Shown: piece by piece, positions 46,885-64,000 of the stretch
Layout of the letters: each line of letters begins with the position of its first letter
Numbering within the stretch: the first letter of the stretch is position 1
DNA from: Actinacidiphila acidipaludis
Lineage (GTDB): Bacteria; Actinomycetota; Actinomycetes; Streptomycetales; Streptomycetaceae
Direction of reading: 5' to 3'
DNA: 64,000 nucleotides
NCBI RefSeq assembly: GCF_019890725.1
Contig: NZ_JAINZZ010000021.1
Span: forward strand, 1 to 64,000
Made by a program: the position numbers and the translations under genes
Notes under the pieces: generated by a model
What the model saw: the letters and a program-made list of their open reading frames with translations, nothing else
Database searches by the model: none
Told to the model about the DNA's origin: nothing

Positions 46885-49149
<2,265 letters not shown>

Positions 49150-49164
49150 GCATGACCGTCTGAC

Positions 49165-49198
49165 TCCGGGCCGGCCCCTGCGCGGGGGCCGGCCCGGA
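49165..49198 (+). terminator. katG terminator
   Basis: TCCGGGCCGGCCCC and its complement form a perfect 14-bp stem 15 bp past the katG stop. Confidence 0.82.
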
Positions 49199-49276
49199 CG
49201 TCTGTCCGGAGGTCTGTCCGGACATCGGTGCCGAAGGTCTGTCCGCGCGGGGAAGCCCGCCGGGGAGGGTCCCTTC

Positions 49277-50542
49277 TCAGCCGGGCAGCCGGTCGGGCAG
49301 GCCGAAGCGGGGGAGCAGGGCGGGGTCGCCGAAACGGGTGACCGCGCTGATCCCATCGCCCGTCAGCGTCAGCACCACCAGGCCGTACGGGTCCGCGCCG
49401 GAGCTGCCCGCCGCGCGCAGGTAACAGCCGAACGCAGGACTGCCGTTCGCCCGGGTCGGCAGCAGCCGCAACGACCGGCCGCCCCACCACGGCAGCGCCT
49501 GGTAGAACCGCGCGATGGCCGCGCGGCCCTGGTATGCCAGCGGCTCCGGCGGCATCGTCAGCCACGCGTCGCCGGTCAGCAGCGCGAGCAGCCCGTCGAT
49601 GTCGGAGCCCTCCACGGCCGCCGCGAACCGCTCGGCGATCTCCCGTTCCCGCGCCGACCGCGGCAGCGGCAGCGCGTCCCGGCCGCGCGGCGGCAGGTTC
49701 CCGTCCAGCGTGGCGCGGGCCCGCTGCAGCGCGCTGTTCACCGACACACCGGAGACGTCCAGCAGGTCCGCGACCTCGGCCGCGCGGAACCCCAGCACGT
49801 CCCGCAGCACCAGCACCGCGCGCTGCCGCGCCGGCAGCCGCTGCAACCCGGCCACGAACGCCAGCGCCAGCGACTCCCGCGTCTCGTAGCGAGCCTCCGG
49901 CCCGGGCGCGGCGTCCGGCAGCTCCGCCAGCAGCGCGTCCGGGTACGGCTCGTACCGCGGCGGCTCCGAGCGCCGGGTCGGTTCCGGCAGCACCGGGGGC
50001 AGGTCCGACGGTCGCAGATCCGACAGCCCCAGATCCGACGGCGCCCGGGCGCCGGGTTCCGTGGACGCCGTCCGCGGGCGGCGCCCGGCGGCACGCAGCA
50101 CGTTCAGGCAGCGGTTGGTCGCGATCCGGTACAGCCAGGCGCGCACCGACGACCGCTCCTGGAACCCCTCGAGCCCGCGCCACGCCGCCAGCAGCGTCTC
50201 CTGGACGGCGTCCTCCGCGTCCTGCACCGAGCCGAGCATGCGGTAGCAGTGCAGGTGCAACTCGCGCCGGTACGGCTCGGTGAGGTCCCGGAACGCGTCC
50301 CCGTCGCCCGCCCGGGCCCGCTCCAGCGCCGATCCGCTCACCGTCACATTTGCCGTCACCGTTGTCGTCACCACTGCCGTCCTCGCGGTCCTCACCGTGG
50401 TCGTCCTCGCGGTCGTCCTCGCGGTCGCCACCGCGCCCGCGCCAGTCGTCGCCCTCGCGCCCGCGCCCGTCGTCGCCCTCGCGCCCGCGCCCGTCGTCGC
50501 CCTCGCGCCCGCGCCCGTCGTCGCCCTCGCGCCGTGCGTCAT
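49277..50542 (-). CDS. ECF41/SigG-like sigma factor with SnoaL-type C-terminal domain
   Basis: A 421-residue protein from ATG 50542 with GGAGGAGG upstream. Residues about 3-60 are low complexity, beginning with four tandem GARATTGA units. Region 2 (FRDLTEPYRRELHLHCYRMLGSVQDAEDAVQETLLAAWRGL) and region 4 (LPARQRAVLVLRDVLGFRAAEVADLLDVSGVSVNSALQRAR) follow. The C-terminus is a SnoaL-like domain (FAAAVEGSDIDGLLALLTGDAWLTMPP, GRAAIARFY), which in such sigma factors controls activity in cis. No separate anti-sigma gene adjoins. It is divergent from the SDR gene at 50698. Confidence 0.9.
   Translation of the reverse strand: MTHGARATTGAGARATTGAGARATTGAGARATTGAGAVATARTTARTTTVRTARTAVVTTTVTANVTVSGSALERARAGDGDAFRDLTEPYRRELHLHCYRMLGSVQDAEDAVQETLLAAWRGLEGFQERSSVRAWLYRIATNRCLNVLRAAGRRPRTASTEPGARAPSDLGLSDLRPSDLPPVLPEPTRRSEPPRYEPYPDALLAELPDAAPGPEARYETRESLALAFVAGLQRLPARQRAVLVLRDVLGFRAAEVADLLDVSGVSVNSALQRARATLDGNLPPRGRDALPLPRSAREREIAERFAAAVEGSDIDGLLALLTGDAWLTMPPEPLAYQGRAAIARFYQALPWWGGRSLRLLPTRANGSPAFGCYLRAAGSSGADPYGLVVLTLTGDGISAVTRFGDPALLPRFGLPDRLPG
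50433..50533. repeat. 24-bp tandem repeats in the sigma factor 5' end
   Basis: Four units of GCGCCCGCGCCCGTCGTCGC plus CCTC, the first with one change, encode the GARATTGA repeats. Less regular GTCCTCGCG units continue the low-complexity tract to the left. Confidence 0.88.
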
Positions 50543-50697
50543 CGCTGCGCCTCCTCCGGCCTCCTGTCGTGAGGACACCGCCCGGCCCGGAAAGTCATCG
50601 GTGACTTCGTGCCGGCGGCCGTGTCTCAACCAACGACCGCACCACGAGGCCGTCCCGCGGGCGGCCGGCACGAACGACAGCCAAGGAGAACGTCGCC

Positions 50698-51414
50698 ATG
50701 ACCACCATCACGGGCAGCGCGGTACTGATCACCGGGGGGAACCGCGGCATCGGCCGGGCCCTCGTCGAGGAGGCCCTGACCAGGGGCGCGGTCAGGGTCT
50801 ACGCCGGAACGCGGCAGCCCCTGGCGCATCCCGACCCGCGTGTCACGCCCCTCACCCTGGACGTGACCGACCCGGCGCAGGTGCGGGAGGCCGCCGAACA
50901 GGTCGGCACGCTGGACATCCTCGTCAACAACGCCGGAGTCGCCCTCCCCGACGTCCTCGACGACCGGGGCGCCCTCGAACGCCACCTCGCCGTCAACCTC
51001 TACGGCACCTACGAGGTGACGCAGGCGTTCCTGCCGCACCTGGAGGCGGCGCAGGGCGCCATCGTCAACAACCTCTCGGTGAACGGCTTCGCGCCGCTGC
51101 CGCTGCTGCCCGCCTACTCCGCCTCCAAGGCCGCCGCCTTCTCCCTCACGCAGTCGCTGCGCGTGCTGCTCGCGGCGCGGGGCGTGCGGGTCCTCGCGGT
51201 GATGACCGGGCCGGTGGACACGGACATGACCCGGGAGATCCACGTCCCCAAGGCGTCCCCCGCGTCCGTGGCGCGGGCCGTCCTCGACGGGGTGGAGAAG
51301 GACGAGGAGGAGATCTTCCCCGATCCGCTGTCCGCTCCCCTCGCCGAGGGCTGGCGCACCGGCATGGTCAAGACCCTGGCCCGGCGGCTCGCCGAGATGC
51401 CGACCTCCGGCTGA
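50698..51414 (+). CDS. SDR-family oxidoreductase
   Basis: A 238-residue protein with AAGGAG upstream of ATG 50698. The motifs are ITGGNRGIGRAL, LDILVNNAGVAL, NNLSVNGFAPLPLLPAYSASKAA with the Ser and YSASK residues, and MTGPVDTDM. It is a classical SDR. Divergence from the SnoaL-type sigma factor gene suggests it is one of that factor's targets. Confidence 0.92.
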   Translation: MTTITGSAVLITGGNRGIGRALVEEALTRGAVRVYAGTRQPLAHPDPRVTPLTLDVTDPAQVREAAEQVGTLDILVNNAGVALPDVLDDRGALERHLAVNLYGTYEVTQAFLPHLEAAQGAIVNNLSVNGFAPLPLLPAYSASKAAAFSLTQSLRVLLAARGVRVLAVMTGPVDTDMTREIHVPKASPASVARAVLDGVEKDEEEIFPDPLSAPLAEGWRTGMVKTLARRLAEMPTSG

Positions 51415-51420
51415 GCGCGA

Positions 51421-51444
51421 GGGCGCGGGCACGTCCCCGCGCCC
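51421..51444 (+). terminator. Terminator after the SDR gene
   Basis: GGGCGCGGG and CCCGCGCCC form a perfect 9-bp stem followed by CCTTTGT, seven bases past the stop. Confidence 0.7.
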
Positions 51445-51579
51445 CCTTTGTCGCGCTTCGTCCCCTGCGGGCCCGGCCACTTCGTGAGGTGCACGGGGAA
51501 GAGGTGTCCCATGGGGTGCCGGAGACCCCGCAGGGTGGGTACCTTCATCGGCGGCCGACGAATTCCGTTGGTCCGTACC

Positions 51580-51618
51580 AGGGTTGAACAACCCTCCCTA
51601 CCAGGGCTGATCAACCCC
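51580..51618 (+). promoter_or_regulatory. Two tandem palindromes before the ThuA gene
   Basis: AGGGTTGAACAACCCT (51580-51595) is a perfect palindrome. AGGGCTGATCAACCCC (51603-51618) is an imperfect copy. Their centres are 23 bp apart, both preceded by TACC, and they end 17 bp before the ATG: a likely repressor site. Confidence 0.6.
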
Positions 51619-51635
51619 TCGACGAAGGAGACCCC

Positions 51636-52889
51636 ATGACCAGATGGTTAGCCGCCGGGATGGCGCGCCCCCGGCGCACCGCGCTGCAACTGCTCGCCGC
51701 GCTCCTGCTGCTCCTCGGCGTCGAGGTGGCCCCGGCCCACCACGCGCGGGCCGACACGCCGTTCAACGTCATCGCCTTCTACGACGGCACCTACGACGCG
51801 GCGCACATCAGCTTCGTGCACGAGGCCAATGCCTGGTTCCCGCAGCAGGCGGCCGCCAACGGCTTCACGTACACCGCCACCAACGACTGGTCCCGGCTCA
51901 ACGCCAGTGAGCTGTCGCACTACCAGGTGGTGATGTTCCTGGACAACTACCCGCAGACCGCCGCCGAACAGAGCGCGTTCCAGACCTACATGAACAACGG
52001 CGGCGGCTGGATCGGCTTCCACGTCGCCGCGTACAACGACACCTCGTCCAACGGCTGGTCCTGGTACCACCAGACCTTCCTCGGCACGGGCCTGTTCGCG
52101 TCCAACTCCTGGGGCCCGACGTCCGAGACGCTGAAGATCGAGGACCCGAACCACCCGGCGACCGCGGGCCTGCCGGCCACCATCACCTCGTCCGTCAGCG
52201 AGTGGTACAGCTGGCAGAACGACCTGCGGCAGAACCCGGCGATCGACATCCTGGCGTCGCTGGACCCGTCAACGTTTCCGGTCGGCACCGACCCCAACCA
52301 GACCTGGTACAGCGGCTACTACCCGATCGTCTGGTCGAACCGGAACTACCACATGGTCTACAACAACTTCGGGCACAACGCGATGGACTACTCGACGAAC
52401 ACGACCCTGTCGTCGACCTTCGCCAGCGCCGACCAGAACAAGCTGCTGCTGCAGGAGATCAAGTGGGCGGCCGGCCAGGCCGGTCCGGTCACACCGCCGA
52501 CGCAGCACACCGGACCCGTCACCGGCTACGCCGGCAAGTGCATGGACGTCGCCGGGGCCGGCAGCGCCAACGGCACGGCCGTCCAGCTCTACGACTGCAA
52601 CGGCACCAACGCCCAGAACTGGACGGTCGGTTCCGACGGCACCCTCCGCGCGCTGGGCAAATGCCTCGACGTCACCAGCGCCGGCACCGCCAACGGCACC
52701 AAGCTCCAGCTCTGGGACTGCAACGGCACCGGGGCGCAGCAGTGGGTCGCCGAGTCCGACGGGCACCTGAAGAACCCCAGCTCCGGCCGCTATGTCGACG
52801 TCACCAACGGCACCTCGGCCAACGGCACGCGCCTGCAGATCTGGGACCGCAACAGCAACGCCTGGCAGCTCTGGCACCTGCCTGCCTGA
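51636..52889 (+). CDS. Secreted ThuA-domain protein with ricin-type lectin domain
   Basis: A 417-residue protein with GAAGGAGA upstream of ATG 51636. A signal peptide covers residues 1-38. The ThuA domain, a GATase1-like fold, spans about 45-280 (FNVIAFYDGTYDAAHISFVHEANAWF, NGGGWIGFHVAAY, YPIVWSNRNYHMVYNNFGHNAMDY). A ricin-type beta-trefoil follows (CMDVAGAGSANGTAVQLYDCNG and two further repeats). ThuA proteins are linked to sugar metabolism, but the reaction is not settled; the lectin domain suggests action on extracellular polysaccharide. Confidence 0.9.
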   Translation: MTRWLAAGMARPRRTALQLLAALLLLLGVEVAPAHHARADTPFNVIAFYDGTYDAAHISFVHEANAWFPQQAAANGFTYTATNDWSRLNASELSHYQVVMFLDNYPQTAAEQSAFQTYMNNGGGWIGFHVAAYNDTSSNGWSWYHQTFLGTGLFASNSWGPTSETLKIEDPNHPATAGLPATITSSVSEWYSWQNDLRQNPAIDILASLDPSTFPVGTDPNQTWYSGYYPIVWSNRNYHMVYNNFGHNAMDYSTNTTLSSTFASADQNKLLLQEIKWAAGQAGPVTPPTQHTGPVTGYAGKCMDVAGAGSANGTAVQLYDCNGTNAQNWTVGSDGTLRALGKCLDVTSAGTANGTKLQLWDCNGTGAQQWVAESDGHLKNPSSGRYVDVTNGTSANGTRLQIWDRNSNAWQLWHLPA

Positions 52890-55691: not shown

Positions 55692-56255
55692 CGGAAGGTG
55701 TGCCCGCCCCCACCCGAAGCCAGCACACGGCTCCGGAGGGCGCTTCATGCTCCTACGTTTACGCAGGTCACGAGTTGATGATCGGCCGCTGGAGCGCGAT
55801 CCGTCCACAGGTAGTCCACGGACGGTGCAAGAGGCTGTGAGGTAGAGCCTACGTCCGTATCGGGTACGTCCCGGACCCGCCTGGCGCGAACGGTGACCGT
55901 TGCTGGACACCGTCCACCGCCTTCCGCATCCCGGCCGCCGCCTACCGAAGGTGGTCGGCGGCCAAGGACCATGGCTGGGCTTCAAAGGGTCCGTCTGGGC
56001 TTCCACCCAGTGTGCCGGGGTGGAGGCGTGCAAGCAGATCCCGTGTCGCTCCAGGGCATGAAGATGGCGCCATAATGCACGCATGCGAGGCGGTGAGACC
56101 GCGGTCCAGCGCGAGGGGCGGCCAGGTGAGTGGTCCGCTGCCGAATGGGGCGCTGAGGCGTACACCGGCGAGCGGCCGCTTCGAACCTGCTCAAGTCTTG
56201 AGCGAAGGCATTGCGGTGAGGTTTCCTGCCATGCGTGGATGGCAGGCTGGGACGT
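55692..56255. other. Gene-free left border of the 7-deazaguanine block
   Basis: A 564-bp gap. Base composition is lower in GC than the left flank and no coding frame is convincing. I see no integrase, tRNA or clear attachment site in it. It probably includes decayed sequence from an insertion boundary. Confidence 0.55.
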
Positions 56256-56771
56256 TCAGGCGATAACGCGGTAACGGCGGCGCAGTAGCGCCAGGACTAT
56301 GACGGCCACGACGGTCATCCACGTTTTGCCGAGGATTTGTCCAGGCAGGTAATTGAGGGAGCCGAAGGCGAGGTGGAGGAACAGGAGGCTGTCGACGAGA
56401 AGCCCGACGGCGTTCGAGGCGAGTATCGCAACCAGAAGTCCTCGGCGGCGCAGGGGTTCGTAGACGACGAAGTCCATGGTTTCGGCGACGGCGAAGGCAA
56501 CCGCTGAGGCAGTGGCGAGGCTGGGGTCCGCGAGAAGGTAGGAGAGGACGGTGCCGATGGCTATGGCGGCGAGGATGGCGCCACGGCCGGTCGCCTCGCG
56601 TGCAAGGTCGCGCAGGACGAGCGCCAGGCCGACGAAGTAGACGCCGGCGGGCGCCACGTAACCGAGGCCGACGGGTACCGCGCCGAAGTGGGCGACGGCC
56701 AAGTTGGCGGCCGGGATGGTGGCGATGTACGCGATGACTGTGGCAATACCGGCAGGAGCGGGGGCCTTCAC
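56256..56771 (-). CDS. yhhQ: VUT/YhhQ-family queuosine-precursor-type transporter
   Basis: A 171-residue membrane protein starting at GTG 56771. About six hydrophobic segments are visible (AGIATVIAYIATIPAANLAV, YVAPAGVYFVGLALVLRDLA, GAILAAIAIGTVLSYLLA and others). The family block is VAFAVAETMDFVVYEPLRRR with ASNAVGLLVDSLLFLHLAFG. Characterised YhhQ proteins import preQ0/preQ1, and relatives occur in phage 7-deazaguanine clusters. It lies on the same strand as the preQ0 genes but 400 bp further on, so it may be a separate transcript. Confidence 0.88.
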   Translation of the reverse strand: MKAPAPAGIATVIAYIATIPAANLAVAHFGAVPVGLGYVAPAGVYFVGLALVLRDLAREATGRGAILAAIAIGTVLSYLLADPSLATASAVAFAVAETMDFVVYEPLRRRGLLVAILASNAVGLLVDSLLFLHLAFGSLNYLPGQILGKTWMTVVAVIVLALLRRRYRVIA

Positions 56772-57170
56772 GATCTACTTTCTGTCTCGGTGGTGGGTTG
56801 CTGCGCTCGGCGCCAGCGGCGGACGGACGGTGGGACGAACGTGCAGACAGTACAGCGCAGGACACTGACATCCTTAAGGCGTCGGTCCGCGCTGCAGTGC
56901 TGAGAGAAGTGCCTGCTGCCGGGAGGTGAGTAAGGTCCCGGTGGGGTTAGGCGATGCCGCCCTGAGGGACTCGGGTGGGCTCCTGGATGGCGAACGCGCT
57001 AGTCAGCGGCGCCGGCGCCGGCCCGCTGTACGGGCCCACGTGGCGCGGGCATAGCCGCCAGTGGACGCTCCCCGCGGGCTCGGGTAAAGCCGCGCACGTG
57101 GCCGCCGCAGGCACGGCGTAGGGAAGGGGTTGGCCCCCTTTCCGTTCCGCCCCAGGGCGCGTGAGGGGCT
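56772..57170. other. Gap between folE2 and the transporter gene
   Basis: It holds only the doubtful small frame at 56947-57174 and the leader of the transporter gene. I searched the leader for a preQ1 riboswitch-like hairpin and adenine-rich tail and saw none. Confidence 0.5.
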
Positions 57171-57174
57171 TCAA
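56947..57174 (-). CDS. Doubtful 75-residue frame coupled to folE2
   Basis: A TTG at 57174 overlaps the folE2 stop (TTGA). The frame reads through VHWRLCPRHVGPYSGPAPAP with good third-position GC in its second half. No binding site beyond the coupling is seen and no family is recognised, so it may be a remnant. Confidence 0.28.
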   Translation of the reverse strand: MKPLTRPGAERKGGQPLPYAVPAAATCAALPEPAGSVHWRLCPRHVGPYSGPAPAPLTSAFAIQEPTRVPQGGIA

Positions 57175-57944
57175 CCGGTGTAGGTCAGGCTGGCGATGGC
57201 GTCGTGGCTGTGAATACTTTCCAGATTCTTCGCCCGGATCGCGTGTTTCAGCCCCTTTTCACGGCATGCAAGGCTTATATCCCGGATGATGTCTTCGACG
57301 AAGACGGGATGGTCGTAGGCCTGCATGGTGACGACGCGTTCGTCGGGCCGCTTGATGAGGGGGAGGACAGGGGCGGAGCCGACGCTGCGCAGTAGGTCAA
57401 CGATTTCGTGGACCGCCAGGGGGTAGGGCGCGTCGGCGGTCCCGGTGACAGTGAGGGTGACCTCGCTGCGCTGGTTGTGGGCGCCGTAGTCGGAGATGGC
57501 TTTGGAGCACGGGCACAGACTGGTGACGTCGGTGGTCACAGTGGTGGCGACGGTGCAGGTGTCGGGGGTGATGCAACCGGTGATGGTGACGTCGTGGGTT
57601 TGCCACGACTGCCGCTTACTGGCTGGCGCGGTCACGCTCGTGGCGATGGGCATGGACAACGTCACAGCCAGGCTGGGGGCTTCAAGCAGGGCGAGCCCTC
57701 GTTTGAGCGCGATGGGCAAGTCCTGCGGGGCGAGGGTGGCCACTTCCTCATGGACCAGGGCGATCATGCGGCTCATGTGGGTGCCACGTCGCTCGGCCTG
57801 CAGGCCGACGGTGACGCTGATGTCGGCGACGCCATGCTGGCGCGTGTGACCGTCATCGAACGTGACGGGATAGCGCAAGCCGCTAATCCCTACTTGGTCG
57901 ATGGCGATGCCGCGGGAGTCGTCCTCGTTTTGGATGTCATGCAT
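57171..57944 (-). CDS. folE2: GTP cyclohydrolase IB (FolE2 type)
   Basis: A 257-residue enzyme with RRGTHMSRMIALV and the metal-binding motif TSLCPCSKAISDYGAHNQRS (Cys144, Cys146). VEDIIRDISLACREKGLKHAIRAKNLESIHSHDAIA is also typical of the family. It converts GTP to 7,8-dihydroneopterin triphosphate, the first step to preQ0. The IB type works with metals other than zinc. It follows queD by four bases in the queC-queE-queD-folE2 operon; its placement there points to preQ0 supply rather than folate. Confidence 0.95.
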   Translation of the reverse strand: MHDIQNEDDSRGIAIDQVGISGLRYPVTFDDGHTRQHGVADISVTVGLQAERRGTHMSRMIALVHEEVATLAPQDLPIALKRGLALLEAPSLAVTLSMPIATSVTAPASKRQSWQTHDVTITGCITPDTCTVATTVTTDVTSLCPCSKAISDYGAHNQRSEVTLTVTGTADAPYPLAVHEIVDLLRSVGSAPVLPLIKRPDERVVTMQAYDHPVFVEDIIRDISLACREKGLKHAIRAKNLESIHSHDAIASLTYTG

Positions 57945-57948
57945 GCCA

Positions 57949-58305
57949 CTACTCGCCTCGGTAGGTGCAACCGGAGGTACAGGTCTCGCGCACGGTGATT
58001 GCCGACAGGGCGGGGAGTTCGACGATCATCCGGTCCCAGATCCAGCGGGCCAGGTTCTCGCTGGTGGGGTTGTCGAGGCCTTCGATGTCATTCAGGTAGT
58101 AATGGTCGAGTTGTGCATCAATGGGCTTAAAAGCCTCTTTGATGTCGCCGAAGTCCATCACCCAGCCCGCCTCCGGATCGACGGGTGCCTCCACGTGCAC
58201 GGTGACCTTGTAGGAGTGGCCGTGCAGGCGGGCGCACTTGTGGCCCTCGGGGACGCGCGGCAGGCGGTGGGCCGCTTCGAAGGTGAACTCGCGGAAGATT
58301 TCCAT
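57949..58305 (-). CDS. queD: 6-carboxytetrahydropterin synthase
   Basis: A 118-residue enzyme. Zinc ligands are His in [15 protein letters not shown] and [11 protein letters not shown]; Cys in [10 protein letters not shown] is the catalytic residue, and [25 protein letters not shown] with the final Glu/Arg region matches the family. It turns dihydroneopterin triphosphate into CPH4. Its ATG overlaps the queE stop by one base (TAATG), giving tight coupling. Confidence 0.96.
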
Positions 58306-58940
58306 TACTGAATTCCCAGATACTTGTGCGTCTGGAGGGAGAGCGTCCAGCGCGGGTTCTTCATGCAGTACTCGACGGTGGCACGAGTGTGGGCCTCGCG
58401 GTCGGCGTCATCCAGGGGCTGCAGGCGGAAGTGGCGAAAGTCGAGGTGTTCGAACTGGGTGGGGTCGCCGCCGGCCTGGGGGTAGACCAGTTTGAGTTCG
58501 TCACCGCTGGTGAGGACTAGGGTGGAGCCGATCTTCGGGCTCACACACAGCCAGTCGATACCGCGGGGAGCGGGCCGGGTGCCGTTGGTTTCCACCGCAA
58601 TCTCAAAACCGCGGCCATGCAGGGCCTCGATGGCGGCCTCGTCCAACTGCAGCAGGGGTTCTCCGCCGGTGCACACCACGAACCGGTGCGCTTGGTCGGT
58701 GGTGGGCCAGGCGGCCTCGACGGCGTCGGCCAGTTCCTTGGCGGTGCGAAAGCGGCCGCCGCCTTCGCCGTCGGTGCCCACGAAATCGGTGTCGCAGAAC
58801 TGGCAGATCGCGCGGGCGCGATCCTGTTCGCGGCCGGTCCACAGGTTGCAGCGGGAAAACCGGCAAAACACCGCCGGGCGGCCGGCGTGGCCGCCTTCGC
58901 CTTGCAGCGTGTAGAAGATTTCCTTGATCAGGTAGGTCAT
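58305..58940 (-). CDS. queE: 7-carboxy-7-deazaguanine synthase (radical SAM)
   Basis: A 211-residue protein from ATG 58940, two bases after the queC stop. The iron-sulfur motif is the family's unusual form, [19 protein letters not shown] (C-x14-C-x2-C). TGGEPLLQ and [10 protein letters not shown] bind S-adenosylmethionine and substrate. The TLQGEG start is typical. It converts CPH4 to 7-carboxy-7-deazaguanine by radical ring contraction. Confidence 0.96.
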
Positions 58941-58942
58941 GC

Positions 58943-59638
58943 TCAGGCGCTCTGGTACTGGACGGGGTCGCTGACGCCGGCTTCGGCGAAGCCCTTCAGG
59001 CGCAGCAGGCAGGTGTCGCACTTGCCGCAGGCCCGGCCCTGCTCGTCGGGGTCGTAGCAGGAGGAGGTCAGGGAGTAGTCCACGCCCAGGCGCAGGCCCG
59101 CGCGGACGATGTCGGCCTTGGAGAGTGCGATCAGGGGGGAGTGCAGCGTGATCTTGGAGGTACCCTCGACGCCGGCCTTGGTCGCCAGGTTGGCCATGGT
59201 GGCGAACGCCTCCATGTACTCGGGGCGGCAGTCGGGGTAGCCGCTGTAGTCCACGGCCGTGACCCCGGTGAAGATGTCGCTGGCGCCGACGGTCTCTGCA
59301 AACGCGAGCGCGAAGGACAAAAAGATCGTGTTGCGGGCCGGCACGTAGGTGATCGGCACCCCCGCCTCTTGCACGTCCGCGAGCGACTCATGCTTGGGTA
59401 CCTCGATGTCGGCCGTCAGAGCAGAGCCGCCGAAGACCCGCAGATCGATGTCGGCGATGACGTGCCGGGCCACGCCCTGGGTCTGGGCGACCCGCTGTGC
59501 CGCCTCCAACTCGATGGAGTGCCGCTGCCCGTAGCGGAAGCTGAGCGCGTATGGAGTGAATCCCTGGTCCTTGGCGATGGCCAGCACCGTGGTCGAGTCC
59601 AGGCCGCCGCTCAGCAACACGATCGCGGGACGGTCCAT
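58943..59638 (-). CDS. queC: 7-cyano-7-deazaguanine (preQ0) synthase
   Basis: A 231-residue ATP-dependent enzyme with the PP-loop [46 protein letters not shown] and a C-terminal zinc site ([19 protein letters not shown]). It makes the nitrile preQ0 from 7-carboxy-7-deazaguanine. It is first in the minus-strand operon, whose promoter is shared with the divergent DNA-modification operon. Confidence 0.97.
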
Positions 59639-59666
59639 GCTGTCACTCCCTTGTCTGAAGTCCAGT

Positions 59667-59682
59667 TGCCTCCGTTGAGGCA
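59667..59682. promoter_or_regulatory. Inverted repeat in the queC / DNA-modification divergent gap
   Basis: TGCCTC and GAGGCA flank CGTT, a perfect 6-4-6 inverted repeat 28 bp upstream of queC. Further right the gap becomes AT-richer (CTACAGTAATCACAATC) and may hold the plus-strand promoter. No dedicated regulator is visible. Confidence 0.45.
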
Positions 59683-59761
59683 GTGGCAGCCTACCGTCTT
59701 AACTACCGGCTACAGTAATCACAATCAGAATCGAGTTACGGAAGCCAGAGGTCGAACCGCA

Positions 59762-60658
59762 GTGAACGAGTTGCCCATCGTGGTCACGTGCACGGACCGG
59801 AAGACCTCGCCCCCCGAGGCCACGCTGCAGGCCCGTGCCCTGCCCGGGACGGGCCTGGCGGAGCGGGCCGCGGAATGGGCCCGCCGCCTGCACGCCGCGC
59901 CAGGGCCGCGCATCGCGCTGGAGGACCTCTATCAGGGCGACCAGTGGCGGCGCGCCCAAGCCCTCACAAAAGCCGCATCTCAGGCCGGTTTTGTTCCCCG
60001 GCTCTACGTGGCCTCGGCCGGTCTGGGCCTGCGGCCAGTCTCCAGCCTCGCACCCTCCTACGCGGCGACTTTCCTGCCCCGACACGCAGATTCCGTGGCT
60101 TCCTCCAGCGCGCAGGCCACCGGCTGGTGGGATCACCTGCAACGCATGGACGCCAACTGCCAGCTGCCCCAGATCGCAGCCGCCGCCGGCCGGGCGCTGG
60201 TGGTGCTGTCCGAGACCTACGCAGCAGCCATGCACCGCGACCTTGCCGCGCTGGCGGCCACGGGAACCGAGACGGTACTCATAGGGGGCGCCTGTGAGCT
60301 GGACGGCATCGTGCGCGTGCCGGCCAACGCCGCCCTGCGCCACGCCCTGGGCGGCACCCGCACCAGCTTGAACGTCCGTATGGCGGCTTCCTGGCTGGAG
60401 CACTGCACGCCCGGCCACCTCATCACCCCCAGCGCACGCAAGCGTTGGAGCGACTGGGTCGAGCAGGTCGCCCGCCCCGAACGCTACGAGCGCCGGCCGA
60501 TGACGGACGAAGCCGTGATCGACTTCATCGAACAGTCGAAGGACAGCCACCCCGGCTCCTCCCGCACCCGCCTGCTGCGCCTGCTGCGAGACCAGGGGAT
60601 GGCCTGTGAACAAAAGCGCTTCGCCAACCTGTACACAGCGACGATTGGCCCTCGATGA
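59762..60658 (+). CDS. DUF6884/YaaA-like protein, first gene of the DNA-modification operon
   Basis: A 298-residue protein starting at GTG 59762 (AGAGG upstream). The N-terminal 170 residues show a DUF6884/YaaA-like order of motifs: IVVTCTDRKTSPP, LEDLYQGDQWRRAQAL, LYVASAGLGLRPVSSLAPSY, and VLSETYAAAMHRDLAAL ending in VLIGGACEL. The last ~100 residues are helical (DEAVIDFIEQSKDSHPGSS, RTRLLRLLRDQG) and could bind DNA. YaaA-like domains occur in other base-modification systems. Being coupled to the DGQHR gene, it may process the inserted preQ0 (a DpdC-type role) or bind DNA; neither is shown. Confidence 0.72.
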   Translation: MNELPIVVTCTDRKTSPPEATLQARALPGTGLAERAAEWARRLHAAPGPRIALEDLYQGDQWRRAQALTKAASQAGFVPRLYVASAGLGLRPVSSLAPSYAATFLPRHADSVASSSAQATGWWDHLQRMDANCQLPQIAAAAGRALVVLSETYAAAMHRDLAALAATGTETVLIGGACELDGIVRVPANAALRHALGGTRTSLNVRMAASWLEHCTPGHLITPSARKRWSDWVEQVARPERYERRPMTDEAVIDFIEQSKDSHPGSSRTRLLRLLRDQGMACEQKRFANLYTATIGPR

Positions 60659-61788
60659 CCTCCCTTGTGCTTAAGCGTCGGGCCCTGCGGATCGAGCAGC
60701 ACCCCACGATCCCCCTGTACGTGTTCACCCTGGCGGCAGAAGAGGTCCACCAGGTCGCCGACGTGGCACGCATCTCGAGGGATGAGGCCGGCAAACTGAT
60801 CGGCTACCAACGCCCCGAGAAGAAGCAGCACGTGAAGCAGATCCTCGAGTACCTCGATGGCGAGGAGGTGCTGTTTCCCAACGGGCTGATCATGGCGCTG
60901 CCCTCCAGCGTGCGGTTCAAGTCCAGCCCGGGCCCGGGCAGCAGCGACGGCCTGTGCACCTCGGGCACGCTGGAGATCACCCTGCCCGATGCCCCCGACG
61001 CCCCCCGGCCCGCCTGGATCGTCGACGGTCAGCAGCGCAGCCTCGCCCTGGCTCGCACCCGCAACACCCGCCTGGCTGTGACCATCGCCGGCTTCGTTGC
61101 CGAAGACCTGGAAACCCAGCGCGACCAGTTCTTGCGCGTGAACACGGTGTCCCCGCTGCCCACCAATCTCGTGACCGAACTCCTCCCGGAAGTCGGCACC
61201 CTGCTGCCGACCAAGCTCTCCGCCCGCAAACTCCCCGCCGTGCTGGTCGAGGCCCTCAATCACGACAAGGACTCACCCTTTCGGGGCCTGGTGCGCCGCC
61301 CGTCCACCACGGCCGAGCAGAAGACGGACGCTGTCGTCACGGACAACAGCCTCACCACGGCCATCCAGGAATCCCTCAACTCCCCGTCAGGCGCCTTTTT
61401 TCCCTACAAAAATCTGTCCAATGGCACGGTCGACACGGCCACCATCCGCCAGATCCTCGTCGTCTACTGGACCGCGGTGCGCGACACCTTCCCCGACGCG
61501 TGGGGGCTGCCGGCGACCAAGAGTCGGCTGATGCACGGCGTCGGCATCCGCTCCATGGGACGCTTGATGGATCGCGTCATGATGGCCATCGACCCCGCCT
61601 CACCCCATGCCGTGGAGTTGGCGCGGGACGAACTCGCCTTGATCGCACCGCACTGCCGCTGGACCCAGGGACGCTGGCCCGACCTGAACACCCCCTGGAA
61701 CGAACTCCAGAACAACCCCCGCCACATCAGCACCCTGTCGAACTACCTCCTCCGTATCTATGTGCAGGAAAAGGCAAAGGCCGCGTGA
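60655..61788 (+). CDS. dpdB: DGQHR-domain protein, DpdB/DndB-like (copy 1)
   Basis: A 377-residue protein whose ATG overlaps the previous stop (ATGA). The defining motif is IVDGQQRSLALARTRN, with DGQQR at 124-128. Nearby blocks are IGYQRPEKKQHVKQIL, LFPNGLIMALP, FLRVNTVSPLPTNLVTELLPE, and DAWGLPATKSRLMHGVGIRSMG. DndB controls phosphorothioation and DpdB is an ATPase required with DpdA for preQ0 insertion. Coupling to the transglycosylase gene and the que genes favours DpdB. The symbol reflects this context, not proven orthology. Confidence 0.87.
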   Translation: MTSLVLKRRALRIEQHPTIPLYVFTLAAEEVHQVADVARISRDEAGKLIGYQRPEKKQHVKQILEYLDGEEVLFPNGLIMALPSSVRFKSSPGPGSSDGLCTSGTLEITLPDAPDAPRPAWIVDGQQRSLALARTRNTRLAVTIAGFVAEDLETQRDQFLRVNTVSPLPTNLVTELLPEVGTLLPTKLSARKLPAVLVEALNHDKDSPFRGLVRRPSTTAEQKTDAVVTDNSLTTAIQESLNSPSGAFFPYKNLSNGTVDTATIRQILVVYWTAVRDTFPDAWGLPATKSRLMHGVGIRSMGRLMDRVMMAIDPASPHAVELARDELALIAPHCRWTQGRWPDLNTPWNELQNNPRHISTLSNYLLRIYVQEKAKAA

Positions 61789-63005
61789 AATTCTATTTCC
61801 CTGACAGCCAGGACCTGGTGAGCCCCACGTACGACTTCATCAACGATGAGTACTCGCCCTACCGAGTCCGTCAGCGCGATGACGTCTACGCCCACCAGGC
61901 CGTGACACCGATCCCCTACGACGGGATCCTTGTCAGCAAGGCGGTTGTCGACGGATCCATGAAGGGTGCAGGTAAATACTCTGCCCCCCAGCGTGAGCGC
62001 TTTTACCGCCTGGGCGTGAGAAACTTCTTCCGTCTTCCCGACGAATGCTCCACCATCGGAGACTGCGGCGCCTTCAACTATATCGACGAAGAGCGCCCAC
62101 CCTACGAAGTCGACGAAGTCCTTGACTTCTACGGCCGATGCGGATTCGACGCCGGCATCAGCATCGACCACATCATCTTCGGCTACATCCCTCAAGAATC
62201 AGACACGGAACCAGAAGCGGCGTGGGTGGAACGCCAACAGATCTCCCTGGAACTCGCTGAGAACTTTCTCGCCGCGACCAAAAAGCACGGCGCCCACTTC
62301 GAACCCGTCGGCGCCGCCCAGGGGTGGGGGCCCGACAGTTACGCCCACTCCGTCGCGCAACTGCAGAAAATGGGATACCGGCGTATCGCCCTCGGCGGCA
62401 TGGTTCCCCTCAAGTCCCACGAGATCCTGGCCTGCCTGCGAGCCATCGACGAAGTACGCAACCACGACACCGAACTACACCTGCTCGGCATCAATCGCGT
62501 CGACAGCATGGAGCAGTTCGCCCGCCACGGCGTGACCAGCTTCGACAGCACCTCCGCCTTCCGTCAGGCCTTCATGGACGACCGCAACAACTACCACACC
62601 GCTACCGGTGCCTATACCGCCATCAGGGTCCCCCAAGTTGACGGCAACCCCGCACTCAAACGTCTCATCCTGTCCGGAAGTGTCTCCCAGGCTCAGGCCA
62701 TCACCGCAGAGCGGGCCTGCCTGCGCGCACTGCGGGAATTCGACCGCGGGGAAAACTCCCTTGAGGGCGTGCTGACCGCGCTTCAGACGTACGAGTCCCT
62801 GGTGCTGGGACCGAAAAAGAAAAGCTATCTCGAATTCTATGAGCGCACGCTGAGTGACGCTCCATGGCGTGCCTGCCTCTGCGCTCTGTGTAAGAAACAC
62901 GGCATCGAGATCGCTATATTCCGCGGAAGTGAACGCAACAAGCGTCGCGGATTCCATAATCTGACGGTGCTTGAGGCGAAAATGCGATCGCTCACCTTCG
63001 GGTAA
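61785..63005 (+). CDS. dpdA: DpdA-type DNA-guanine transglycosylase (TGT fold)
   Basis: A 406-residue protein whose GTG overlaps the previous stop (GTGA). It has TGT features: GDCGAFNY with Asp93 where tRNA enzymes have DSGGFQ; IALGGMVPLKS matching GGLAVGE; the likely nucleophile Asp254 in VTSFDSTSAFR where tRNA enzymes have MFDCVMPTR; and a C-terminal zinc site (CLCALCKK, then His in RRGFHN). It is longer in the middle and lacks the tRNA-binding PUA domain. With DGQHR partners this fits DpdA, which swaps guanine in DNA for preQ0. Confidence 0.9.
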   Translation: MKFYFPDSQDLVSPTYDFINDEYSPYRVRQRDDVYAHQAVTPIPYDGILVSKAVVDGSMKGAGKYSAPQRERFYRLGVRNFFRLPDECSTIGDCGAFNYIDEERPPYEVDEVLDFYGRCGFDAGISIDHIIFGYIPQESDTEPEAAWVERQQISLELAENFLAATKKHGAHFEPVGAAQGWGPDSYAHSVAQLQKMGYRRIALGGMVPLKSHEILACLRAIDEVRNHDTELHLLGINRVDSMEQFARHGVTSFDSTSAFRQAFMDDRNNYHTATGAYTAIRVPQVDGNPALKRLILSGSVSQAQAITAERACLRALREFDRGENSLEGVLTALQTYESLVLGPKKKSYLEFYERTLSDAPWRACLCALCKKHGIEIAIFRGSERNKRRGFHNLTVLEAKMRSLTFG

Positions 63006-63052
63006 CATGCGCCCCTAATTCTTTTAACTTTTTAAACCAGTCAGGAGATGCG
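63006..63052 (+). promoter_or_regulatory. AT-rich gap before the second DGQHR gene
   Basis: The only intergenic break in the operon is an AT-rich 47 bases (CTAATTCTTTTAACTTTTTA) with AGGAG before the ATG. It may hold an internal promoter or set the translation level of the paralogue. Confidence 0.35.
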
Positions 63053-64000
63053 ATGGCTGACCGCTACGAACTCAGGCTCCCTGCACTCGAGGTGCGCCAA
63101 GGAGACCGAAAAATCTACTGCTTCGCTGTCGACGGTAAGAAGATCCACAGTTTTGCTGCCGTCTCCCGCGTCCGCCGCGACGACGACAGCGCCCTCCAGG
63201 GCTACCAGCGCCCCGAGGTCCTCAGCCACATCCGCGGCATCCGCCGCTACCTCGAGTCCGACAAGGCCATGCTCCCCAACGCCCTGGTCCTGGCCTTCGA
63301 CGGTTCCGTCCGTTTCGAGAGCGGAGCACGACGCAAGGACGGCGTCGACTACTCCGTCCCCGGCGAGTTGGTCATCCCCGTCGACGAGTCCCTGTCCGAC
63401 GAGGACAAGCCCGCCCTGATCGTCGACGGCCAGCAGCGCAGCGCTGCGATCCGCGACGCCAACCTTGCCGAATTCCCCGTCGCCGCCGTTGGCTTTATCG
63501 CCGACGACCAGCAAGACCAGCGCTCGCAGTTCATTCTGGTCAATTCCACTAAGCCGCTGCCCAAGGGCCTCATCCACGAGCTCCTGCCCGAGACCAGTGG
63601 TCATCTCCCGCCCACCTACGCGCGCAAGCGCCTGCCGGCCCAGTTGATGACCCGCCTCAACACCGACGGCCAGGGCCCCTTCTACGGCCGCATCGCCAGC
63701 CCCACCTCACCCGACGGCAACATCAAAGACACTGCCGTTCTCCGCATGCTGGAGCACAGCCTCTTCGAGGGCGCCCTCTACCAGTACCGCAACCCCGAAG
63801 ACGGCTCCGGTGACGTCGACCGCATGCTGCTGCATCTGCGCTCCTTCTGGGCCATTGTCAAGGAGACATTCAGCGACGCTTGGAAACTCCCGCCTCGCCA
63901 GTCCCGCCTCACTCACGGTGCTGGCATCCAGGCCATGGGTTTCGTCATGGATAGCCTCACCGAAGGCATGTCTGCCGAAGAGGTCGACTGCGACGCGGTG
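63053..64000 (+). CDS. DGQHR-domain protein, DpdB/DndB-like (copy 2), cut by window end
   Basis: The frame runs from ATG 63053 (AGGAG upstream) off the right edge, 316 codons without stop. It parallels copy 1 block by block: LQGYQRPEVLSHIRGI, LPNALVLAFDGSVRF, IVDGQQRSAAIRDAN (DGQQR at 125-129), FILVNSTKPLPKGLIHELLPE, and DAWKLPPRQSRLTHGAGIQAMG. The two are clearly paralogues but diverged across most of their length, so they may act as a heteromer or have split roles. The C-terminus is not visible. Confidence 0.9.
   Translation, partial: MADRYELRLPALEVRQGDRKIYCFAVDGKKIHSFAAVSRVRRDDDSALQGYQRPEVLSHIRGIRRYLESDKAMLPNALVLAFDGSVRFESGARRKDGVDYSVPGELVIPVDESLSDEDKPALIVDGQQRSAAIRDANLAEFPVAAVGFIADDQQDQRSQFILVNSTKPLPKGLIHELLPETSGHLPPTYARKRLPAQLMTRLNTDGQGPFYGRIASPTSPDGNIKDTAVLRMLEHSLFEGALYQYRNPEDGSGDVDRMLLHLRSFWAIVKETFSDAWKLPPRQSRLTHGAGIQAMGFVMDSLTEGMSAEEVDCDAV

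Follow-up and report, generated by a model that had tools for sequence, protein, structure and literature searches.

A predicted Dpd restriction-modification island at a tRNA-Arg(CCG) gene of Actinacidiphila acidipaludis and the apparent exchange of its halves among relatives

What is the cluster of 7-deazaguanine genes at the end of a 64,000-base stretch of Actinacidiphila acidipaludis DNA, and where does it stop? The stretch (positions 1 to 64,000 of contig NZ_JAINZZ010000021.1, assembly GCF_019890725.1; hereafter the window) breaks off inside one of the genes of the cluster, and an earlier note made from its letters described a compact DNA-modification island whose gene order differed from that of the enterobacterial cluster. 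The window is the first part of a contig of 120,517 bases in a genome of 8.48 Mb, and since it starts at contig base 1, the contig coordinates continue those of the window. We regard the locus at the window edge, with high confidence, as a predicted complete and horizontally acquired Dpd (7-deazapurine in DNA) restriction-modification system. This kind of system is already known, and the gene content is ordinary for Dpd.

Gene content and predicted chemistry

The seventeen island genes run from a yhhQ-like gene through folE2, queD, queE and queC, divergent from dpdC, dpdB1, dpdA and dpdB2, which in turn converge with dpdD, K, J, I (a candidate), H, G, F and E. This content of dpd genes and genes for 7-cyano-7-deazaguanine (preQ0) supports the earlier proposal of a 7-deazaguanine DNA-modification island. 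Pfam confirmed the proposed preQ0 set, on the minus strand throughout: folE2, encoding GTP cyclohydrolase (57171-57944; PF02649 (GCHY-1), E = 2.1e-67), queD (57949-58305; PF01242 (PTPS), E = 5.1e-40), queE (58305-58940; 211 amino acids from ATG; PF04055 (radical SAM), E = 4.4e-9; 64% identical to the queE annotated in locus L071) and queC (58943-59638; PF06508, E = 4.6e-75). For the preQ0-type transporter, a YhhQ/VUT-like gene is indeed present (56256-56771, minus strand, 171 amino acids), but its TIGR00697 match (33 bits, E = 4.9e-8) lies below the cut-off of 50.95, and we call it putative; the protein is 48% identical to the VUT-family-annotated gene of a Sinorhizobium dpd cluster, and 48-49% to VUT genes of alphaproteobacterial dpd clusters.

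The divergent operon with a DNA transglycosylase resembling tRNA-guanine transglycosylase (TGT) and with DGQHR-type proteins was also recovered by PADLOC and NCBIfam, on the plus strand, with scores far above chance level. It consists of dpdC (59762-60658; putative preQ0-to-ADG enzyme, 298 amino acids, GTG start; PADLOC DpdC, E = 7.1e-110), two ParB/DndB-like DGQQR paralogues, dpdB1 (60655-61788; PADLOC, E = 1.1e-148; NF041060, 401 bits; in the B1 clade described below) and dpdB2 (63053-64000 in the window, stop at contig 64154-64156; PADLOC, E = 1.3e-153 for the whole gene; NF041060, 528 bits; in the B2 clade), and, between them, dpdA (61785-63005; DNA-guanine transglycosylase, 406 amino acids, GTG start; PADLOC, E = 2.9e-192; NF041059, 626 bits). 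The first three genes (dpdC, dpdB1 and dpdA) successively overlap, and dpdB2 begins 47 bases past dpdA. The dpdA start was set at GTG 61785, inside the open reading frame (ORF) 60954-63005, from the family models and relatives.

The impression of a compact gene set came from the window's end alone, since the contig continues. Past 64 kb, where the earlier note had proposed looking for dpd restriction genes, these genes were found on the minus strand at 64546-82132: dpdD (contig 64546-66597; PADLOC, E = 8.8e-134; NF041061, 533 bits), dpdK (66572-67099; PADLOC, E = 4.4e-49), dpdJ (67096-71577; PADLOC, 1573.6 bits; NF041067, 1586 bits), a dpdI candidate (71584-72267), dpdH (72264-75338; PADLOC, 1031.5 bits; NF041065, 1062 bits), dpdG (75331-76197; NF041064, 103 bits, cut-off 80), dpdF (76197-78791; PADLOC, E = 2.3e-296) and dpdE (78791-82132; PADLOC, 1223.6 bits). 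All 11 dpd functions from A to K are thus represented by open frames, 10 through family models and DpdI through position and a weak profile match, and the seventeen genes are free of internal stops (frames were read through; the dpdK start was inferred from homologues).

The dpdI candidate encodes 227 amino acids and had no match in PADLOC (to E = 10), Pfam or NCBIfam. An ORF of 230-282 amino acids (as first called) adjoins dpdJ on its dpdH side, on the same strand, in all 13 loci with both genes, Enterobacter included; the opposite strand has open ORFs at this position as well, and the assignment depends on strand and place. A 14-member family profile matched the C-terminal part of the PADLOC-named Enterobacter DpdI (E = 6.6e-5, probability 64), and its comparison with the family from the gamma class of restriction cassette (S. 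musisoli type) covered 213 columns (E = 1.1e-3, probability 20). The gene seems to be a divergent DpdI, a reading that owes more to its position than to its sequence. A survey found dpdI less often than other dpd genes (PMC11888242), and our results suggest that under-annotation may explain this lower count.

Residues 1-400 of DpdA align to PDB chain 7ui4, named DNA-guanine transglycosylase (E = 2.4e-125; the sole PDB sequence at E ≤0.001), which we take to be the Salmonella Montevideo enzyme. D93, D128, H129, D254 and C364/C366/C369/H391 are invariant in all 35 rows of an alignment of the window, Enterobacter, Sinorhizobium, Methylobacterium and 31 dpd loci (27 actinobacterial), the latter found by scanning a genome collection once with an alignment of three DpdA sequences; C364/C366/C369/H391 are presumably the zinc set of TGT, and some of the invariant acids presumably catalytic in the TGT fold. 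The ORF holding dpdA had no match to the Pfam TGT model (PF01702), and the same model found no tRNA TGT in this genome or in any of the 35 genus genomes (own included), whereas it did so in 14 of 14 control genomes. As the Pfam model is silent in the genome and DpdA matches 7ui4 and the NCBIfam DpdA model, the protein does not cluster by sequence with tRNA-acting enzymes; such clustering, with binding of tRNA, was what the earlier note had named as speaking against a DNA-modification island. DpdB1, DpdB2 and DpdC had no solved relative in PDB by sequence at E = 0.001.

The island queC is the only strong QueC in an own-genome search, the second match reaching 23.1 bits over positions 1-68 of 210. 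Together with the lack of a Pfam-detectable tRNA TGT, this single, island-borne QueC makes use of preQ0 in DNA likely, and in this strain preQ0 probably goes to DNA. All 35 genus genomes have QueC matches and six have strong ones (≥150 bits); the bulk of the matches, at about 21-28 bits, were set aside as other enzymes, though most of these exceed the Pfam cut-off of 22. The occurrence of dpdA is sporadic: 2 of the 35 genomes of the genus have it, as do 3 of 150 relatives (own included in both). In a phylum scan of 396 genomes, 27 had a DpdA-family match and only 2, own included, exceeded 500 bits; the other 25, at ≤27 bits, were taken for ordinary TGTs by their scores only. Two peptide patterns found no DpdA relative in viral_contigs.

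What is observed here are the genes with their open frames and homology, the conserved residues, the gene order, the island borders and the lack of a Pfam TGT match; the chemistry and restriction that follow are drawn from the literature. GTP would be converted to preQ0 by FolE2, QueD, QueE and QueC, and preQ0 may also be salvaged through the YhhQ-like transporter. Exchange of guanine in DNA for preQ0 would fall to DpdA together with the ATP-using DpdB, present here as DpdB1 and DpdB2, and DpdC would hydrate the nitrile to give 7-amido-7-deazaguanine (dADG). DpdD-K would then attack unmarked DNA, with E, F and J as helicases, H as ATPase, K as a phospholipase D (PLD) nuclease, and G, I and D as partners. 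In the cited work, insertion uses DpdB, a ParB-like ATPase, and dPreQ0 is hydrolysed to dADG by DpdC (PMC12839542), dpd genes are split into synthesis (dpdA-C) and restriction (dpdD-K) operons (PMC11888242), and the eight restriction genes lower transformation (PMC12707154).

Several points weigh against a complete working system. The case is sequence-based throughout, and both expression and the modified base (dPreQ0 or dADG) are predictions. The homology of DpdI is weak. A strong QueC also occurs in 4 of the 33 genus genomes that lack dpdA, so preQ0 genes are not bound to dpd alone. DpdC shares just 24% identity with its Enterobacter counterpart and matched no NCBIfam model, and the dADG step thus spans a large distance. 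It is also the least conserved modification protein, at 43-57% identity in seven actinomycete pairs whose DpdA is 64-77% identical (an eighth pair, with Planosporangium, was excluded: DpdC 34%, DpdA alignment of 44 residues).

This divergence would fit a system that halts at dPreQ0, its DpdC being inactive or otherwise employed, and not all validated islands encode dADG (PMC11888242). We consider such a halt unlikely, because dpdC, or at L029 its end, precedes dpdB1 in 31 of 31 loci and the PADLOC DpdC model matches as strongly as given above. The QueC genes without dpdA in the genus, and the lack of any visible restriction gene up to the end of the 64-kb window, could instead point to a modification-only cluster, or one for a 7-deazapurine antibiotic, without restriction; this was rejected as very improbable because dpdD-K follow, as open frames, directly past the window end. 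Although preQ0 genes and a TGT-superfamily protein are common to both pathways, a tRNA queuosine/archaeosine pathway with dnd-like genes adjacent by chance is scarcely credible and was rejected, given the PF01702 results in this genome and genus, the matches of DpdA to DpdA models and 7ui4, and the lack of any known place for DpdB, C and D-K in tRNA queuosine synthesis.

Two DpdB subfamilies around dpdA

The order dpdC-dpdB-dpdA-dpdB was found in all 31 loci (L029 has just the final part of dpdC). One branch of a 72-row DpdB tree separated the 32 copies before dpdA from the 32 copies after it (window included), with support 100/100 and presence in 100% of 200 bootstrap trees. Among the 8 ungrouped rows, the before-dpdA copies of Sinorhizobium, Methylobacterium and a faecal contig (MT835580.1) fell with the first kind (B1), and the B2 side took the after-dpdA copies of those three loci, the single Enterobacter DpdB and a phage DpdB. 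Note that long branches were flagged within B2. The two window paralogues are 36.5% identical to each other; to their own kind in four non-actinobacterial loci, B1 is 40-52% and B2 37-48% identical, and for B2, in two of these four loci, the case is carried by the tree, not by raw identity. The DGQQR motif is kept in 35 of 35 B1 rows and 37 of 37 B2 rows, so neither paralogue looks dead.

By these comparisons, DpdB is a family of two ancient subfamilies that flank dpdA. A division of roles between DpdB1 and DpdB2 is our inference only, and the split raises the question of whether they have different tasks; the E. coli and Enterobacter loci examined cannot reveal one, since they have a single DpdB, of the second kind, and no B1. 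The names dpdB1 and dpdB2 had no whole-word match in the literature searched, which the main Dpd papers lie outside, and we do not claim that the split is unreported; GATOR-GC counted 801 additional dpdB copies overall (PMC11888242).

Apparent exchange of the restriction half and a possible second seam

The placement of the restriction genes varies around the constant dpdC-dpdB1-dpdA-dpdB2 core. Of the 31 loci, 14 have them in convergent orientation, beginning with dpdD or dpdK; 10 have them codirectional, beginning with dpdE; 3 have them upstream of the core; and in 4 they were not seen within the stretch available. The window DNA is 93% identical to that of S. olindensis over 55723-64158 and 88-89% identical to S. 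barringtoniae, S. lucensis and S. musisoli over similar stretches. When loci L012-L020 were compared, the DNA match ended at 64158, 2 bp past the dpdB2 stop, in these four species and S. griseoruber, and at 64135 in L016, L017 and L019; only L020 was collinear on into dpdD. The protein identities change at the same place: window and S. musisoli share 93% in DpdA and 98% in B1, but 31% in DpdE and 34% in DpdJ, and S. olindensis and S. musisoli share 96% in DpdA and 36% in DpdJ, while S. musisoli and Cellulomonas share 65% in DpdA and 59% in DpdJ.

In a 25-row tree of DpdA, B1 and B2, nine Streptomyces rows (the window and L012-L019), a group named from layouts and identities ahead of its tree, formed one clade (Shimodaira-Hasegawa-like approximate likelihood ratio test, 99). 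In the DpdJ tree of the same 25 rows (24 of the 31 loci and the window; L027, L029 and L037-L041 left out), the nine needed at least 3 changes, and forcing them together was rejected (approximately unbiased (AU) test, P = 0.0029; log-likelihood 1876 lower). Both trees came from quick searches and have flagged long branches. The restriction halves of the nine fall into three distant classes, alpha (that of the window), beta (S. olindensis type) and gamma (S. musisoli type). On a ten-row modification tree (the nine and S. sporangiiformans), the cassette classes required 5 changes, not fewer than shuffled labels (mean 4.8), and 4 without L019, whose class was assigned by genome because its dpdJ sits on another contig than its dpdA; a further clade test that placed L019 outside the group was not used.

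The modification and restriction halves therefore appear, from these trees and identities, to have been swapped repeatedly among relatives. The window class (alpha) is common to S. sporangiiformans, the neighbour of the nine in the modification tree (DpdJ 84%), so that the window may keep the older pairing, with the exchanges perhaps in its relatives; the data are silent on which half moved. Decoupling of modification and restriction is commonly described for Dnd, which gives a precedent (PMC10853773). The exchange raises the question of whether three Streptomyces restriction classes that share one mark differ in the DNA they cut. Separately, two Saccharothrix loci (L021, L022) have near-identical modification proteins and DpdJ in distant lineages, perhaps another exchange of restriction halves, assuming that the L021 DpdJ lies on the dpdA contig.

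Conflicting single-gene groupings point to a second seam inside the modification half. For DpdB1, Planotetraspora, Microbispora, Nocardia and Planosporangium are compatible with one group (AU, P = 0.43), and this group is rejected by DpdA (P = 0.004) and DpdB2 (log-likelihood 103 lower, P far below 0.001). DpdB2 instead places Nocardia with two mycobacteria, Gordonia and an actinomycete metagenome-assembled genome (support 98), a grouping allowed by DpdA (P = 0.34) and excluded by DpdB1 (P = 1e-4). In three of the four loci, the que genes ahead of dpdC are arranged differently and dpdC identity is low (34-37%); a contig end truncates the fourth. From these groupings, the que order and the dpdC identity, B2 and A would have a common history, and that of B1 would lie closer to C and the que genes. 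Note that the test was post hoc on four loci, the group having been chosen once the DpdB1 tree had been seen, and that the single-gene trees leave out L039 and L040, whose branches were very long. The Nocardia farcinica locus (L029) is in itself a mosaic island, its DpdB1 going with Streptosporangiaceae and its DpdB2 with mycobacteria.

Tentatively, and as a reading that is less likely than not to hold in full, we propose that Dpd is a mosaic of three exchangeable blocks: the que genes with dpdC and dpdB1; dpdA with dpdB2; and dpdD-K. Very distant restriction complexes would work with the same modification enzymes, and so would read the shared mark or its absence, not partner proteins. DpdB2, the sole kind in the E. 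coli and Enterobacter loci, would share the history of DpdA, and DpdB1 would be a second ATPase subunit travelling with DpdC, giving the systems outside these two loci a two-ATPase insertion machine, possibly heteromeric and strand- or sequence-discriminating.

Integration site and comparison with known systems

The island measures 30.15 kb, with a GC content of 64.9% over 55723-85872 as against 72.9% and 71.9% in the flanks. On the left it is bordered by a 17-bp stretch (55723-55739) that exactly repeats, in direct orientation, the core of the tRNA-Arg(CCG) anticodon arm (BLAST E = 5.6e-4 in the 120-kb contig), and the right copy (contig 85856-85872) lies in the anticodon arm of the tRNA-Arg(CCG) gene itself (85829-85902, minus strand). 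Between dpdE and the tRNA are a RepSA remnant of pSAM2 type (about 82965-83291, plus; PF20199 positions 345-436 of 438, E = 4.7e-26), an HTH_17 excisionase-like gene (83267-83461, plus; 27.3 bits, cut-off 27), an integrase (83458-84831, plus; PF00589, 21.5 bits, below the cut-off of 27.1) and a 275-residue ORF without Pfam match (84896-85723, minus). An integrase beside a tRNA and a direct repeat at the far end are thus present, with the integrase score below its cut-off and a left repeat of just 17 bp. Replication genes are not intact, about the last 92 of 438 RepSA positions remaining, and the ORFs read from dpdE to int include no recognisable transfer gene.

The low GC, tRNA repeat and sporadic occurrence support a horizontally acquired island, predicted to descend from an actinomycete integrative and conjugative element (pSAM2) at tRNA-Arg(CCG). 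In S. olindensis, homology to the window starts at 55723, where an intact 43-bp tRNA 3' half sits upstream of the que genes; S. barringtoniae and S. lucensis likewise carry a 43-bp copy ahead of theirs. Beyond dpdD, S. lucensis has a 47%-identical integrase followed by tRNA-Arg(CCG), and S. barringtoniae another 43-bp copy. Among 11 dpdA loci searched, the repeat was found in 3 (L012-L014) and not in L015-L020, L023 and L024, so other dpd islands may use other sites; of 7 right-hand stretches, one held a full tRNA-Arg. At least 12 genomes of the genus have additional partial copies (42-58 bp) of this tRNA half, the pattern expected of an integration hotspot. In the relative G010, the best candidate for an empty site among the matches listed, the two island flanks are separated by about 45 kb of other DNA (G010:C66, about 34,000-79,600). 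An extra partial tRNA-Arg copy stands between them at 63018, and other elements probably occupy the same hotspot there. The chromosomal flank outside the island carries, at 46918-52889, a peroxidase gene and a ThuA/ricin-type lectin protein.

Further relatives were seen. The faecal contig MT835580.1 ('unverified Bacteriophage sp.') has, at 21081-46154, the order C-B1-A-B2-queE-queD-queC with a dpdJ homologue; it may be a dpd island on a phage but is more likely a bacterial one under a wrong label. Myxococcus phage Mx4 (5740-7146 of stretch L076) encodes a B2-side DpdB that shares 46% identity with B2 of the window, and the 13 kb read contain no further relative of any of the seventeen island proteins; this DpdB is possibly an anti-Dpd or decoy protein. 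The Paenibacillus (L073, 7158-11132) and Nostoc (L074, 5077-11258) plasmid dpd loci have a long DpdA (689 and 714 amino acids) and a second TGT-like protein, and show no annotated DpdB in the stretch available, where the gene table is incomplete; they are perhaps another Dpd variant.

Among known systems, the enterobacterial comparison was made with one Enterobacter plasmid and one E. coli chromosome, not with Salmonella. Both have the order C-A-B converging with D-K-J-(I)-H-G-F-E, which the island shares, contrary to the earlier note; the island adds dpdB1 between C and A, the full and adjacent preQ0 gene set and the transporter, and in E. coli queD lies beyond dpdE. DpdA is 49% identical to the Enterobacter protein, while dpdG and dpdI are very divergent, without BLAST match to Enterobacter. 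By DNA similarity, dpdA-dpdB occurs in 159 of 5,426 E. coli genomes. Enterobacterial Dpd of the Salmonella Montevideo/E. coli/Enterobacter type also sits at a tRNA hotspot, leuX (PMC12707154), in place of the tRNA-Arg(CCG) used here. The gain of our analysis is a corrected anatomy: a complete system in enterobacterial order plus one dpdB, forming a defined mobile unit at tRNA-Arg(CCG).

GATOR-GC reported 333 unique Actinomycetota windows within a group with complete synthesis and restriction operons, and preQ0 genes with YhhQ beside some actinobacterial dpd islands; the available portion of its text is silent on an extra dpdB position, an ancient separate clade and restriction-cassette exchange (PMC11888242). 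Alphaproteobacterial clusters (Sinorhizobium and Methylobacterium plasmids) have a C-like gene, dpdB, dpdA and dpdB followed by que genes and a VUT transporter, and their dpdBs belong to the B1 and B2 clades by position, as in the window; they differ in the downstream place of the que genes, and their DpdA is 40-45% identical. DpdB is related to DndB/DGQHR proteins of the Dnd phosphorothioate system, where the chemistry is different and DndB is a possible regulator (PMC10853773), as against an insertion ATPase for DpdB (PMC12839542). BRIGADE likewise combines 7-deazaguanine genes with a YprA helicase and a PLD nuclease; it has been detected only in halophilic archaea, usually with two YprA helicases (PMC12458937), whereas the island described here has one DpdJ.

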